Shown here piece by piece: positions 1,471-6,381 of a stretch of 64,000 bases of DNA (position 1 is its first letter; each line of letters opens with the position of its first letter). The stretch is from contig MSDW01000001.1 in NCBI GenBank assembly GCA_001914405.1, forward strand, positions 1,305,169 through 1,369,168. The letters are read 5' to 3'. The notes below the pieces were generated by a model. It ran no database searches and had not been told where the DNA came from. It worked only from the letters and a program-made list of their open reading frames with translations. A program made the position numbers and the translations under genes. This DNA is from Candidatus Methanohalarchaeum thermophilum (GTDB lineage Archaea > Halobacteriota > Methanonatronarchaeia > Methanonatronarchaeales > Methanonatronarchaeaceae).

Positions 1471-1992
1471 TTATATTTTTTTTATGGCTATCTCTATTGC
1501 TTTCCTTAGGCTAGCTTTGGGCATGATTGTTACGACTGGTATATTTATTATTTTTTCTATTGTTGAACTGACTATTGGTGCACATATTAGGGCGGAAGCT
1601 CCGTCTCTTTCTGCTCTTATTGAGGATATTATTACTTCGTCCATTGATGTTGCTGCATATTCCTCTATTTGGATTTTTTGGTCGTTTTTTTCTATGTATT
1701 TTTTTTCGATTTTGTCTAGTACTGGTCTGGTACCTATTATAGCTATGAATTTGTTTTTTTTCTTTTCTCCTGTAAGTTCTCTAACTGTATTGATTATTTT
1801 TCGGACGGTTTTTAGATTTGGTTCTCTTTCGCTTGATACTATTTTGTATAGTGTGCTTGCTGGTATATTGGCTGCTTTGCTGAAGTTTGATATGTTGGTT
1901 TTTAGTTCTTCTGTTATTGTTGTCTTTAGTGTTTTTGCGAATTCTTTATTTGATTTTAAGGCTGCTTTAATTAATTTTCTCTCAGCCCTCAT
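1471..1992 (-). CDS. HTH transcriptional regulator with PrpR-N-like effector domain
   Basis: 173 residues. Residues about 30-72 form a Cro/XRE-type helix-turn-helix (FSKAANIPASTLYKIVSSE, then a third helix with KTVRKIINTVREL). The C-terminal part (IRAERDGASALICAPIVSSTIEKIINIPVVTIMP) resembles the signal-sensing PrpR-N fold of archaeal one-component regulators. It is divergent from the ABC transporter gene at 2124, with a shared 130-bp AT-rich intergenic region, so it may control that transporter. The long plus-strand open frame over the same region is its shadow: the minus frame has a coherent protein composition, the plus frame is a run of F/I/S/L. Confidence 0.75.
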   Translation of the reverse strand: MRAERKLIKAALKSNKEFAKTLKTTITEELKTNISNFSKAANIPASTLYKIVSSEREPNLKTVRKIINTVRELTGEKKKNKFIAIIGTRPVLDKIEKKYIEKNDQKIQIEEYAATSMDEVIISSIRAERDGASALICAPIVSSTIEKIINIPVVTIMPKASLRKAIEIAIKKI

Positions 1993-2123: not shown

Positions 2124-3242
2124 ATGAAAAGCGAGATCAAAACCACATTATCAATAGGATTAATAGTGGCATTACTATTGGTGTCATTTGGATGTTTACA
2201 AAATAACGAAAACAACCAAGATCAACCTATTCAATTAGTAAGACGTGGAGGACAACAGATGGTTGATTCTCTATCTGAAGGAAGTATCTCTGCTTTTATA
2301 GGCTGGGAGCCTTACAACGCCCAGGCAGTAGTAAACAATGATGCAAAAATCCTGATGAACAGCAGTGAAATATGGAATCATCATCCCTGTTGTGTTGTAG
2401 CATATGATAGCAACTGGTACCAAGAAGTCGGAGAAGAAAAAGCAGATAATATACTTAAAAGATACCTTTGGGCACATGTAAAGGCGACAGAGTGGGTTCA
2501 CGAGGCAAAATCAAGTAATTCGGATAACCATAAAAGATTAATAGATATTTCGGAATCTTACACGAAAAGAAGTGAAGATGTAGTAGAATTTGGACTTGGT
2601 AATGTAGACTATGACTACAAACTGGACAAGGAGGGAGTCAATACATATATCTCAAAATTAAGGGAATACGGGCTATTCCAAGAAGGCAAATGGAATCAAG
2701 CTGGATTTGAGTCTGCAGAAGATTACACAGATAACTTAATCCAAGAAAAATACCTTAAATGGGCGATCGAACATAAAAATAGTAGTGCAGAAGAGATAAA
2801 AGAACTAACCGGGGGATCAGATTATTCAATTGAAGTAGGAATCTTGGTTGAAGATCTACACGAAGTAGCATTTATGGCAGCCAGAGACTTAGGGCTATTT
2901 GAAGAAGTAGGCCTAAATGTCAAAATCCCCGATGAAGCTCCCTATGATAATGGAGCCAACGAAATGTTATCAGGTTTCAAGGAAAATGACATCGATATAG
3001 GGAATTTAGGAATAGCACCAGCTTCAATCCACAGAATAAATAGCAATAACTTCGATACAAATGACACTAAAATAAATGTCATTAGCGCCATAAATTACAA
3101 TGGATCTGCAATCGTAGTAAACGATGAAATTAATTCTCTAAGAGATCTTCAAGGTAAAACTATGGCCTATCCAGGTGAAGGAACCGTCCAGATGTTCTTG
3201 ACATACATGGCTGCAGAAAAGGCAAATATCTCAGTTAGATAA
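2124..3242 (+). CDS. ABC transporter substrate-binding lipoprotein, halves in swapped order
   Basis: 372 residues with a lipoprotein signal (hydrophobic helix, then FGCLQ lipobox, Cys at about 24). The family is the NMT1/SsuA/TauA type that binds nitrate, sulfonates, pyrimidine precursors and similar small solutes. The order is odd. The signal is followed directly by what is normally the C-terminal half (DSLSEGSISAFIGWEPYNA, HHPCCVV, AHVKATEWV). Only then comes what is normally the N-terminal half (EVGILVEDLHEVAFMAARD, DIGNLGIAPASI, INSLRDLQGKTMAYPGEGT). The frame stops just where the second half should resume, 43 nt before the permease gene. This is either a circular permutation or what remains of a tandem two-domain protein after deletions. 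Function as a binding protein is uncertain. Confidence 0.8.
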   Translation: MKSEIKTTLSIGLIVALLLVSFGCLQNNENNQDQPIQLVRRGGQQMVDSLSEGSISAFIGWEPYNAQAVVNNDAKILMNSSEIWNHHPCCVVAYDSNWYQEVGEEKADNILKRYLWAHVKATEWVHEAKSSNSDNHKRLIDISESYTKRSEDVVEFGLGNVDYDYKLDKEGVNTYISKLREYGLFQEGKWNQAGFESAEDYTDNLIQEKYLKWAIEHKNSSAEEIKELTGGSDYSIEVGILVEDLHEVAFMAARDLGLFEEVGLNVKIPDEAPYDNGANEMLSGFKENDIDIGNLGIAPASIHRINSNNFDTNDTKINVISAINYNGSAIVVNDEINSLRDLQGKTMAYPGEGTVQMFLTYMAAEKANISVR

Positions 3243-3285
3243 AATAAAGTGGATAAAGAAGAGATAAAGCCAAGGCAAGATTACC

Positions 3286-4098
3286 ATGGATATCCCAGAT
3301 CTACCTAAAAAGTACCGCAGCACTATTCGTAGAATCTCTTCTATTTTATTATTTATAGTAATCTGGCATATATTAGTTGTATCTGCAGACAAAGGAATAT
3401 ACACTATACCTGGGTTAGAGTTTGGAAGTATACCAACGCCTATAGAAACTTGGAACGGATTCATTGAATCTATAGGTACAACTAGAACGGGTCCAGTAGT
3501 CAGATATGGAATAGAATACCACATACTATATAGCCTAAGAAGAGTACTAATAGCATTCATTTTTTCACTAATTGTTGGAATACCAATCGGACTAGGCATA
3601 GGATACTCAAAAACTATTAGAGATCTATTTGAACCAATAATAGAATTATCAAGACATGTACCACCAATAGCCTGGATTCCACTAACATTATTTATAATCT
3701 CTATAGGATGGTTTAGGCCAGTTTTCATAGTTTTTATTGGAATAGTATTTCCATTAGTCCTAAATACAGTCTATGGAGTCCAAAATACAAACGAAAGATT
3801 TGTAGAAATAGCAAAAACTCTAGGAGCAAATAAATACCAAGTATTACTAAAGGTAGTTATCCCAGCTTCTATTCCATCCATCATGACAGGCGCTAGAGTA
3901 GGCCTAGGAATAGGCTGGATGACTATAGTAGCGGCGGAAATGATTATAGAATCTAGAATCGGAATAGGTTACATGATATGGCAAACCGGCGAAATAGGCC
4001 ATTACCCCAGCATGATCGCCGCAATGATAGTAACAGGCATAGTCGGATTCTCAATGGATAGAGGAATCAGATTACTCAAATCAAAAATCTGGACCTAA
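3286..4098 (+). CDS. ABC transporter permease, NitT/TauT (SsuC) type
   Basis: 270 residues with about six hydrophobic segments. The cytoplasmic coupling motif for the ATPase is clear ([20 protein letters not shown], about residues 183-202), followed by [15 protein letters not shown], typical of SsuC/TauC/NrtB permeases. It follows the binding protein by 43 nt and should form the membrane channel for its solute. No ATP-binding subunit follows; the gene is trailed by transposon relics. It either borrows an ATPase encoded elsewhere or belongs to a broken operon. The ATG at 3286 is the first in-frame start after a stop at 3265-3267. Confidence 0.85.
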
Positions 4099-4339
4099 AA
4101 ACAACAAAACCTAATTTTTCCCTACAAATAAAAGAAAAAGAAAAAAATTTAGGGAATAAAATAAAAGAAGAACTGAGAGGCCTCTGATTTCTGTTTTCCT
4201 CTTAAGAGTTTTATCTTAATGGGTCGCTAAAGGCCCTCGCCCTTTAGGACGGGGATACAGCGACCTAAACTCAACGAACTTTAAGTGTGGGCTCAAAGAA
4301 CATGGATGTAGGTTCTAAAACAGAGGCAGAACCTAAGAG

Positions 4340-4720
4340 GTATGACTTAACAGCGGGAGTTCCTACTTAGTTACTTTCTCCGATATCATCTTATCTTTTG
4401 TACGAGATACCGTAAACCTTTTCTAGAGAACGGGGTAGCAGAGATATTAGAGGAATAAGTAGATAGAGTTTTAAAGAAGAGAGATATTGAGGTACTCAAC
4501 AAAGAGACAAGCACCAACCACACCTACATCCCCTTCAGAACCAAACCCAGCCACAGACCTATCGAAAACCGTTAAAATACTCAAGGGAATGACAAGCAGG
4601 AAACTACGGAACGAATACAGTCACCCCCAGAAACAGGACGCTCTCTGGTAACTAACATACAATCTCGCAACTACAGGGGAAGTCACCCCTTAACCAACTT
4701 AAAGGACATGTCGAAGGCCA
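4340..4720 (+). pseudogene. tnpA: tnpA relic (Y1 transposase of IS200 family)
   Basis: Conceptual translation in more than one frame gives recognisable Y1 HUH-transposase segments: RYHLIFCTRYRKPFLENG, DIEVLNKETSTNHTYIPF, ILKGMTSRKLRNEY, and the catalytic-tyrosine region with LTYNLATTGEV. Premature stops and at least one frame change break it. The metal-binding HUH site reads NHTYI, so its second histidine is already lost. Y1 transposases cut and join single-stranded element ends at hairpins; this copy cannot make an intact enzyme. Confidence 0.75.
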
Positions 4721-4729
4721 AAGGTGAGG

Positions 4730-5715
4730 AATATTGCAGAAAACTATGCAGGCTGGAATTATTAGCCTTACTAACATCAAAGGAAGAACAGCTTGAAAAG
4801 GAATACGAGAATTTCCAGGATTACCTATACAACGATTCTGACGTAGAACTTTATTTTGCGAATAAGCAGCGAGCAAATAGATACTAAGACACAATCAAAG
4901 ATGGTAAAGAGTACCCAATTTCAATATGAAATGACCTGATAGAAGCACGAGGATGTGATTTGGATGTGGGGGATTACTTTGTGGAGATTCCGATAGCACA
5001 GCGTTATGGAGGATTAAAGGTTCCTGTCAAAACTCATACTAGGATTCCAGAAGGTTCTGAGTCCATTGAATCCAAACTTTACCGTTAAGAAACCCAGTTC
5101 TATATCAATATTACCCTTTCCTATGAGGAACTTGAACAATTTGAGGATGATAGAGTGATTGGTATTGACTTTGGTTTGGAGCGTCTTGTTGTTGGAGTAA
5201 CTTTGTTAGTGGCAGATGAAAGGGGTGTAGGATGTGTTCTTTGAAGGAGATGAGGTTAAGGAGACTCAGTGTTAGTATGTCTATTTCCGTAGAAGCTCTT
5301 CAGAAGGCAAGAAGTGGAAGTACAAGGAGTACGATAAGGTTAGGGATCAGCTCCATGTGATCACCATAGCCATTGCAGAAAAGGCAGAGGAAGAGAATCT
5401 TGCTGTAGCAGCGGGAGACCTAGAAGATATCCAGGACCAAGGTAATGGGAAGACAATGAACTGGAGGCTCCATAGCTTCCCACTACAAATTTAGGAAGTT
5501 ATTGGGGGATAAGTGTCGGGAGCGGAGCGTCCAGTATATAGAGGTTAGTGAAGCTTACACATCGCAGACATGTTATAAGTGTGGAAGAGTAAGCTGGTAG
5601 GGTTACTTAAGATCATGTTTTTTGTGGTGGCTCCAAGCTTGAATAGGGATTTGGCTGGAGCTGCTAACATCGCAAAACTGGCTGTGTCCAAGCTTGGGAC
5701 AAAGCCTTTGGAAAC
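4730..5715 (+). pseudogene. tnpB: tnpB relic (RNA-guided nuclease family, IS605 type)
   Basis: Recognisable TnpB pieces occur in shifting frames: VPVKTHTRIPEGSESIESKL, the first RuvC motif IGIDFGLERLVVGVT, GDLEDIQDQGNGKTMN around the second, the zinc-ribbon start YTSQTCYKCG, and the last RuvC motif region NRDLAGAANIAKLAVSKLGT. Several stops and frameshifts make it non-coding. It lies just downstream of the tnpA relic, as in IS605. Confidence 0.75.
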
Positions 5716-5739
5716 AGTAGGGGCATAGTGGCAATACCC

Positions 5740-5941
5740 CTCCCCTCTTACTAAAATGGACTTTCCTCAGCGAATAAGGTCTAAGCTGAGGGAAATGGAA
5801 CTTCCTAGCCATGACCTAGGGCTCTTCCTATCGAATTTTTGGTTTCCGGTAGGAGGAAGTCGGCGAGTGAAGCAGGAACCTCAAAAACCCAAAACTCAAA
5901 ACTTCAATGAATCTCTGCCCTTTAAGGCGGAGAGAATGTCA
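5740..5941 (+). ncRNA. Candidate omega-RNA-like 3' scaffold of the decayed element
   Basis: The block after the tnpB relic contains a hairpin-rich segment (cttcctatcg ... ccggtagg, then aggaagtcggcgagtgaag). Homologous blocks end the elements at about 24110-24284 and 27510-27676. In TnpB systems the RNA guide scaffold derives from this 3' region and the element's right end. The assignment rests on position and repetition only; transcription is not shown. Confidence 0.35.
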
Positions 5942-5956
5942 CCTCTTGGATTAAGG

Positions 5957-6381
5957 TTTTATTTTAGTGGTTGAGAAGTCCCTTTATTAAATCTTTGATT
6001 TTGGTAGAGTGATGAATCAATCACTAAGTGTTAAGTGGTTCTAAGACCGATCAAGGGTTGGTAGTTGGTTGGGGGTCTGCCTTGAACAAAAAGCAATCCC
6101 TTTTTAAAGACAAGTTTATAGGGTAAGCCTGAAACGGTTTTGGAGTAGGGGTCCAGGTGGTTAGTGTGGAGCAGCCATTGAGGAATAAGAGGAGCCATTG
6201 AGGCTAATATATGGGCTCTTGTATCTGCCCTAATCCGGGTCTTCCTCAGAGCAATAGTTCCCTTGCTGACTGGGTGTATGAGACAAGCCCAGTGAACAAG
6301 GCAAACTTCAATTTGGATAAGGCCCATAAGGAAGCCCGCTTCCTCACCGAACAAATGTGAAGTTGGGTAGGGGTCACTTCA
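5957..6381 (+). mobile_element. Non-autonomous element, long-body family (about 425 bp)
   Basis: Starts with the left-end motif attttagtggttgagaag, then a hairpin and gatgaatcaa, and ends with taggggtcacttcac. The interior has no coherent ORF but shares words with 60215-60699 (tggtagttggttgg; taatatatggg ... gtatttgtcct) and, inverted, with 18677-19158 and 61276-61737. It looks like a deletion derivative of a TnpB-type element with its own conserved body. Confidence 0.65.

Follow-up and report, generated by a model that had tools for sequence, protein, structure and literature searches.

In the window, i.e., the whole 64-kb stretch of DNA analysed here, an ORF running from ATG to TAA on the plus strand (2124-3242) encodes a lipoprotein-like protein, which is followed by an ABC permease gene and preceded by a divergent regulator-like gene. 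Substrate-binding proteins (SBPs) of this kind are divided below into three modules: n1, the start of lobe 1; n2, the hinge and the first helix of lobe 2; and c, the remainder. The features of the locus are the following:

1471-1992, minus strand: divergently oriented, regulator-like gene whose HTH_3-like and PrpR_N-like regions score slightly under the Pfam cut-offs
2124-3242, plus strand: circularly permuted SsuA/NMT1-type substrate-binding protein of 372 aa, order c-n1-n2 (Pfam, NCBIfam, module HMM)
2124-2195, plus strand: signal peptide ending in lipobox-like SFGC with Cys24 (sequence; Cys aligned with three orthologues)
2229-2726, plus strand: module c, canonically last (remainder of lobe 2, then back into lobe 1), aa 36-201 (module HMM, conservation)
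2727-2828, plus strand: linker of 34 aa bridging the former C- and N-termini, aa 202-235 (module HMM)
2829-3122, plus strand: module n1, the canonically N-terminal part of lobe 1, aa 236-333 (module HMM)
3135-3230, plus strand: module n2, hinge and first helix of lobe 2, aa 338-369 (module HMM)
3286-4098, plus strand: ABC permease (BPD_transp_1), the conserved partner (Pfam/NCBIfam)

Two Pfam profiles match the protein above their gathering cut-offs, one part each and in swapped order: NMT1_2 (PF13379) with profile positions 147-241 of 252 at aa 29-130 (E 1.4e-19; 71.3 vs 24.7 bits), and NMT1 (PF09084) with positions 6-113 of 216 at aa 249-364 (E 3e-07; 31 vs 20.5 bits). OpuAC (PF04069) is absent among the Pfam matches at E<=0.01. 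The SsuA_fam model TIGR01728 likewise matches in two separate stretches, and the protein stays under its whole-protein cut-off (68.2 vs 163.5). The second-best NCBIfam relative, SaoX (NF040735), yields a score of 42.7 at a cut-off of 300. The swapped stretches of both Pfam and SsuA_fam make the swapped order real, beyond chance, and thereby bear out a preliminary description according to which the second half of the fold follows the signal and the first half comes last.

Each of n1, n2 and c is found exactly once by the module HMM, and their order is rotated, as in a circular permutant. Lobe 2 itself is interrupted by the cut, which separates its first helix (GTVQMFLTYMAAEKANI, now C-terminal) from the next strand; this strand (IQLVRRGG), canonically situated after the helix, now follows directly after the anchor, and the ORF stops 3 aa past n2. 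Module c contains the segments WEP (61-63) and HPCC (87-90). Searches of PDB sequences yielded only weak matches to CmpC/nitrate-transporter chains for the whole protein, via its c part, and only marginal ones for the n1-n2 part, including TauA (6ssy, E 0.032).

Concerning predicted structure, AF2 models built on an input of four permuted sequences reach a pLDDT of 81.5 and a pTM of 0.81 in the best of five models (lowest pLDDT 55.4). This predicted confidence is as expected for one closed unit and lends limited support to a closure of the swapped halves into a single fold, the point which the preliminary description had proposed to check. Since Foldseek and VIA keep the chain order, a low score is expected for a permutant: with the c-n1-n2 model, Foldseek returned only two matches at E<=0.001 (TM 0.30-0.41; best E 2.5e-4, OpuAC), and VIA reached a Z of 9.3 for NikA and 8.6 for OpuAC, which is little higher than the best values of 7-8 that the tool gives as typical for models lacking a clear match. 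Nearly all fold-search rows shown by both are binding proteins. The AF2 model of an n2-c-n1 protein is weak (pLDDT 66.1, pTM 0.57).

Three circular orders among related binding proteins

Among 113 distinct binding-protein ORFs from 150 loci, 76 exhibit the order c-n1-n2, 29 the canonical order n1-n2-c and three the order n2-c-n1, with five being partial; since permuted queries served to find most of the loci, these proportions are not a natural frequency. As a control for profile bias, 20 further SBP loci with lower profile matches were classed, and all 20 are canonical. The three n2-c-n1 cases are L088 (Theionarchaea), the protein of genome G038 (loci L008, L118 and L149) and that of genome G321 (L139), and their cut is the hinge, just before a 'DLxGK' segment. 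All c-n1-n2 proteins share a breakpoint within a few residues, and their linker between c and n1 measures 12-42 aa (median 31, 76 proteins). The G321 cut is exact to a residue: n1 ends with 'SALVL' and n2 starts with 'PELASKY', where the canonical protein of L132 reads 'SALVLLPELAANY'.

The SsuA_fam cut-off is passed by the canonical proteins of L094 (195.3) and L110 (193) and by the permuted one of L139 (179.9), and it is failed by the permuted proteins of L004 (114.5), L088 (145.9) and G038 (160). Because this model splits permuted proteins in two and four of the five tested fall under its cut-off, the permutation is easily missed in annotation.

The order c-n1-n2 is carried by at least 38 of 392 genomes of the phylum, counting that of the window; as classification was confined to fetched loci, the true number may be higher. 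A first search of 60 relatives matched eight genomes, again including the window's own. Three of these possess colinear full-length orthologues with 52%, 32% and 34% identity, the first being colinear over aa 23-371; G011, G027 and G029 have the canonical order, and G038 turned out to be n2-c-n1. The wider searches of the phylum and of genome contigs were made with a four-row profile, a scan of the genome contigs with the single protein having returned no relatives. Among the best 80 of 456 contig matches of the four-row alignment, which were those used, c-n1-n2 is found beyond the phylum in Thermoplasmata and Bacillota; carriers named as deposited in this set are Thermoplasmata, Methanomassiliicoccales, Methanoperedenaceae and Archaeoglobi, and, within Bacillota, among others Thermincola and Syntrophomonas. 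The order also occurs on single-contig genomes (G024, G116, G153 and CP070751.1).

In all six pairs of close permuted relatives tested, dN/dS lies between 0.064 and 0.12, indicating purifying selection. Variability per site in the 76 permuted proteins correlates with that in the 29 canonical ones (Spearman 0.785, 255 columns). Thirteen residues that are at least 86% conserved in both of these orders are kept in the window protein: W61, P63, S80, H87, C89, C90, H246, G277, G296, P299, G327, S328 and Q356. Within HPCC (2382-2393, aa 87-90), each Cys is present in at least 93% of canonical and of c-n1-n2 proteins; the second is also found in two of the three n2-c-n1 proteins and is replaced by Asp in G038. 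The motif is a possible ligand, metal or vicinal-disulfide site.

The preliminary description had left the choice between a true circular permutant and the central part of what was once a tandem two-domain protein. A tandem pair that loses its first n and its last c would leave precisely c-n1-n2, and duplication is given as a standard model of permutation in PMC3320104. A local origin of this kind, or a deletion or misassembly in the window genome, is nevertheless contradicted by single-copy c-n1-n2 in many independent genomes, by the purifying selection on permuted relatives, and by the loci themselves: no ORF of at least 100 aa in any of the 150 contains a module twice, such that neither a tandem intermediate nor a full tandem orthologue, of which the window copy would be a deletion, was seen among them. 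We therefore regard a local event as hardly credible. The first option, a true circular permutant, stands, with the same single-copy order being found in distant archaea and in Bacillota. An ancient tandem ancestor may nonetheless underlie the permuted order.

Two proteins were considered as tandem candidates on account of their length (L131, 1170 aa, 2818-6327, minus strand; L132, 819 aa, 2642-5098, plus strand) and were rejected, each containing one canonical set embedded in a larger protein. In one of them the SBP domain is preceded by repeats which we take to resemble a right-handed beta-helix.

Number of order changes and the rearrangement within one genus

Trees of permease and ATPase were chosen as unpermuted neighbours of the binding protein. 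The largest comprises 97 rows, i.e., the 108 complete SBPs minus nine without an adjacent permease and two with truncated permeases (L103, L108), the five partial SBPs being excluded; a second one of 55 rows is a hand-thinned subset of these, and a third one of 70 rows adds 15 of the 20 control loci. The window is represented in them by its permease only. Each of the three trees requires six changes of order, and so does the tree of the de-permuted binding protein itself (108 rows). The n2-c-n1 cases account for three separate changes, and c-n1-n2 for the other three. As one clade, the c-n1-n2 proteins appear in none of 200 bootstrap trees and are rejected by the AU test (p = 0.0064 and p = 0.0018).

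Since the trees are unrooted, they are possibly explained by two or more gains of c-n1-n2, or by one gain followed by reversals, e.g., in Anaerolineales (L105) or in Asgard archaea; mosaic operons could furthermore inflate the count. A single ancient permutation to c-n1-n2, inherited and passed on by gene transfer, with canonical members as reversals or mosaic operons and the recurrence thus overstated, would account for the breakpoint common to all c-n1-n2 proteins within a few residues and for the grouping of clades A, B and C in the SBP tree, where they enclose a single canonical row. It is at odds with the result of the AU test and bootstraps, although that result is compatible both with two gains and with a single gain followed by reversals, and with a group of ten members (families f12, f21 and f22) placed among canonical operons in both gene sets; the three n2-c-n1 events are left untouched by it. 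We consider this single origin possible, but rather doubtful.

The SBP of L105 (5902-6954) exhibits the canonical order and is situated beside or inside a permuted clade of Thermoplasmata in the trees; it is a possible reversal.

One of the changes can be followed at the DNA level. G038 and G011 belong to one genus, and the binding protein is present in all four genomes examined from their family; three of these are canonical, and only G038, an assembly of 220 contigs, is n2-c-n1. In the canonical locus L006, the n1 part (1105-1382) aligns to 2017-2294 of L008 from G038 at 83%, and the part comprising n2 and c (1384-1988) aligns to 1384-1985 of L008 at 78%. The flanks are colinear between both loci (71% upstream, 77% downstream). 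In L008, the n1 block of 278 bp is now situated just before the stop codon, the alignment resumes at 2300 (2009 in L006), and the linker text is split between the front and the junction. As the two pieces abut within one base in the canonical gene, only minor loss or duplication has occurred at the hinge. A block transfer, or the formation of a circle that reopened elsewhere, fits this event as well as a tandem duplication with two deletions.

Gene neighbourhood, ATPase and candidate cargo

The usual gene set consists of a divergent HTH-type regulator, the binding protein, the permease and the ATPase. In the fetched stretches, many of which are short, c-n1-n2 proteins are accompanied by a downstream permease in 69, an ATPase in 67 and a regulator in 45 of 76 cases, canonical proteins in 27, 23 and 7 of 29, and n2-c-n1 proteins in 3, 2 and 2 of 3, respectively. 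The best NCBIfam relatives of the window permease are SaoP, TauC and NtrB, all under their cut-offs (SaoP, NF040733, as the best: 173.6 vs 295). Relatives of the window regulator adjoin both permuted and canonical binding-protein genes.

No ATPase match at E<=1e-15 is found inside the window. The best candidate in the genome is situated about 483 kb away (G000:C1:824401-825102) and has no adjoining permease. It is 56% identical to the ATPase of the Methanocellales orthologue and not specially close to the ATPase of the nearest orthologue, its closest matches being those of L039, L146 (a canonical operon) and L049 at 57-59%. A second operon in the same genome (L152) comprises a canonical-order binding protein, a permease and an ATPase. 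In most orthologues the ATPase gene follows the permease; in the window, this place is taken by a degenerate stretch similar to an insertion sequence. Its fragments (4351-5728) are in different frames and resemble an IS200/IS605-type element; we take the pieces to be TnpA-like 'YHLIFCTRYRKPFL', TnpB-like 'VIGIDFGLERLVV', a zinc-ribbon, and 'NRDLAGAANIAKLAV'.

The missing ATPase, the degenerate stretch and the long branch of the window in the trees might suggest that the halves no longer form a binding protein and that the gene is a decaying relic in this genome. The intact frame of 372 aa, in which the most strongly conserved residues are kept, the intact frames of permease and regulator, and the unpaired ATPase of the right type elsewhere in the genome all speak against such decay, which we judge improbable. 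Very probably, the ORF instead encodes a functional, circularly permuted lipoprotein that binds the substrate of an ABC importer of the SsuA/TauA/NrtA type. Its chain would adopt the two-lobed fold usual for type II binding proteins, with the ligand between the lobes and the conserved W-E-P and H-P-C-C segments taking part in its binding; the permease (3286-4098) would import the cargo, and the ATPase encoded about 483 kb away would power this import.

For seven c-n1-n2 SBPs (L034, L035, L144, L145, L089, L096, L054), no permease was found in the vicinity; one clade, of Methanoperedens- and ANME-like genomes, comprises six of these proteins. They may be orphan or paralogous receptors. In Mnemosynella, a second SsuA-like protein without an evident signal peptide (L058:5016-5921) is encoded directly upstream of the permuted gene. 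This ORF of 302 aa was considered as a half protein and rejected, as it is SsuA-like in ordinary order (69.2 bits, below the cut-off).

Concerning the cargo, the canonical protein of L110 matches structure chains of TauA (6ssy), NrtA (2g29), SsuA (3uif/2x26) and a bicarbonate transporter (2i48), which we take to be CmpA. Neighbouring genes were surveyed around 63 binding proteins that have a permease and sufficiently long flanks, one representative per cluster being scanned. Judged by these representatives, recurrent clusters include MtaA/CmuA-like URO-D proteins (11 loci), RACo-type activators (9) and B12-binding corrinoid proteins (6), which are found near both c-n1-n2 and canonical genes; several other neighbours are housekeeping genes. 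In the archaeal genome G024, an MtrH-family methyltransferase gene (L004:557-1507) lies immediately upstream of the permuted SBP gene. These four kinds of neighbours give a weak hint of methylated compounds, and it may be speculated that the conserved Cys pair suits a thiol or a soft-metal ligand. A small methylated or sulfur-containing organic compound is our best guess for the cargo, and a weak one.

Membrane anchor and comparison with known systems

Cys24 of the window protein aligns with the lipobox Cys of three orthologues, and its SFGC, with an unusual Ser at position -3, matches a loose lipobox pattern and not the strict one. The strict pattern is found in 52 of 76 c-n1-n2, two of three n2-c-n1 and nine of 29 canonical proteins, the loose one in 57, two and 14, respectively; ancestry confounds this comparison between the orders, and canonical members can be anchored too. 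Some groups apparently use a transmembrane anchor. The permuted protein of L139 (2436-3590, minus strand) possesses a signal peptide without a lipobox and a C-terminal tail of the form 'TPGF...hydrophobic...ARRR'. We assume this tail to resemble a PGF-CTERM anchor, PGF-CTERM not being among the NCBIfam matches of the protein. Given the tail and the lack of a lipobox, the anchor may be C-terminal, which in the order n2-c-n1 is again the hinge.

In the canonical order, the membrane anchor would precede the start of lobe 1; the permutation to c-n1-n2 relocates it to lobe 2, and that to n2-c-n1 to the hinge. Tentatively, we favour that permutants persist as neutral or slightly favourable re-sitings of the anchor. 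On a similarly provisional footing, the binding protein of a single type of ABC-importer operon might have undergone no fewer than four to five independent re-cuts. These would be confined to two sites, the lobe hinge (three re-cuts) and a single loop of lobe 2 (two or more, barring reversion), and would have come about because an anchor (N-terminal lipid, or the apparent C-terminal anchor in L139) that is moved to the hinge or to lobe 2 changes the docking or the opening of the tethered protein.

Permuted binding proteins are already known among type I sugar binders and glycine-betaine binders (PMC4990184 and PMC2395249, respectively). TpMglB-2 (Tp0684, 'Type Ic') is described in the former as a naturally permuted, membrane-tethered glucose-binding lipoprotein, and its authors propose tethering there as a possible reason for the permutation. 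The window protein equally is a naturally permuted lipoprotein SBP. TpMglB-2 belongs to the bacterial type I (cluster B) sugar fold, whereas the window family, by its Pfam matches, is of the SsuA/NMT1 type and mostly archaeal in our sample; unlike TpMglB-2, it exhibits three circular orders in homologous operons. OpuAC and ProX, reported in PMC2395249 as permuted relative to each other and detected by CPSARST, resemble the window family in that the permutation occurs within type II binding proteins, and OpuAC chains (2b4m, 5nxx, 3chg) are among the structural matches of the window model; the OpuAC/ProX pairs are far diverged (<24% identity) and were found by structure.

SsuA, TauA, NrtA and CmpA constitute the sequence family of the window protein, but are canonical (n1-n2-c). 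SaoX and SaoP of the Sec-assisted organometallic system are related to the window SBP and permease, with scores far below the curated cut-offs. In the open-access literature searched, we encountered neither a permuted member of the SsuA/NMT1 family nor an operon in which permutation recurs. To meet it repeatedly in a single type of operon, as here, is unusual.

As a rule, natural circular permutations are deduced by comparing distant homologues, when the event itself is long past. In the present family, canonical and permuted proteins share a common gene neighbourhood, a trace at the DNA level exists within one genus, and two cut sites recur; these features permit direct tests of how permutations originate (by tandem duplication vs block transfer) and of the role of anchor position.
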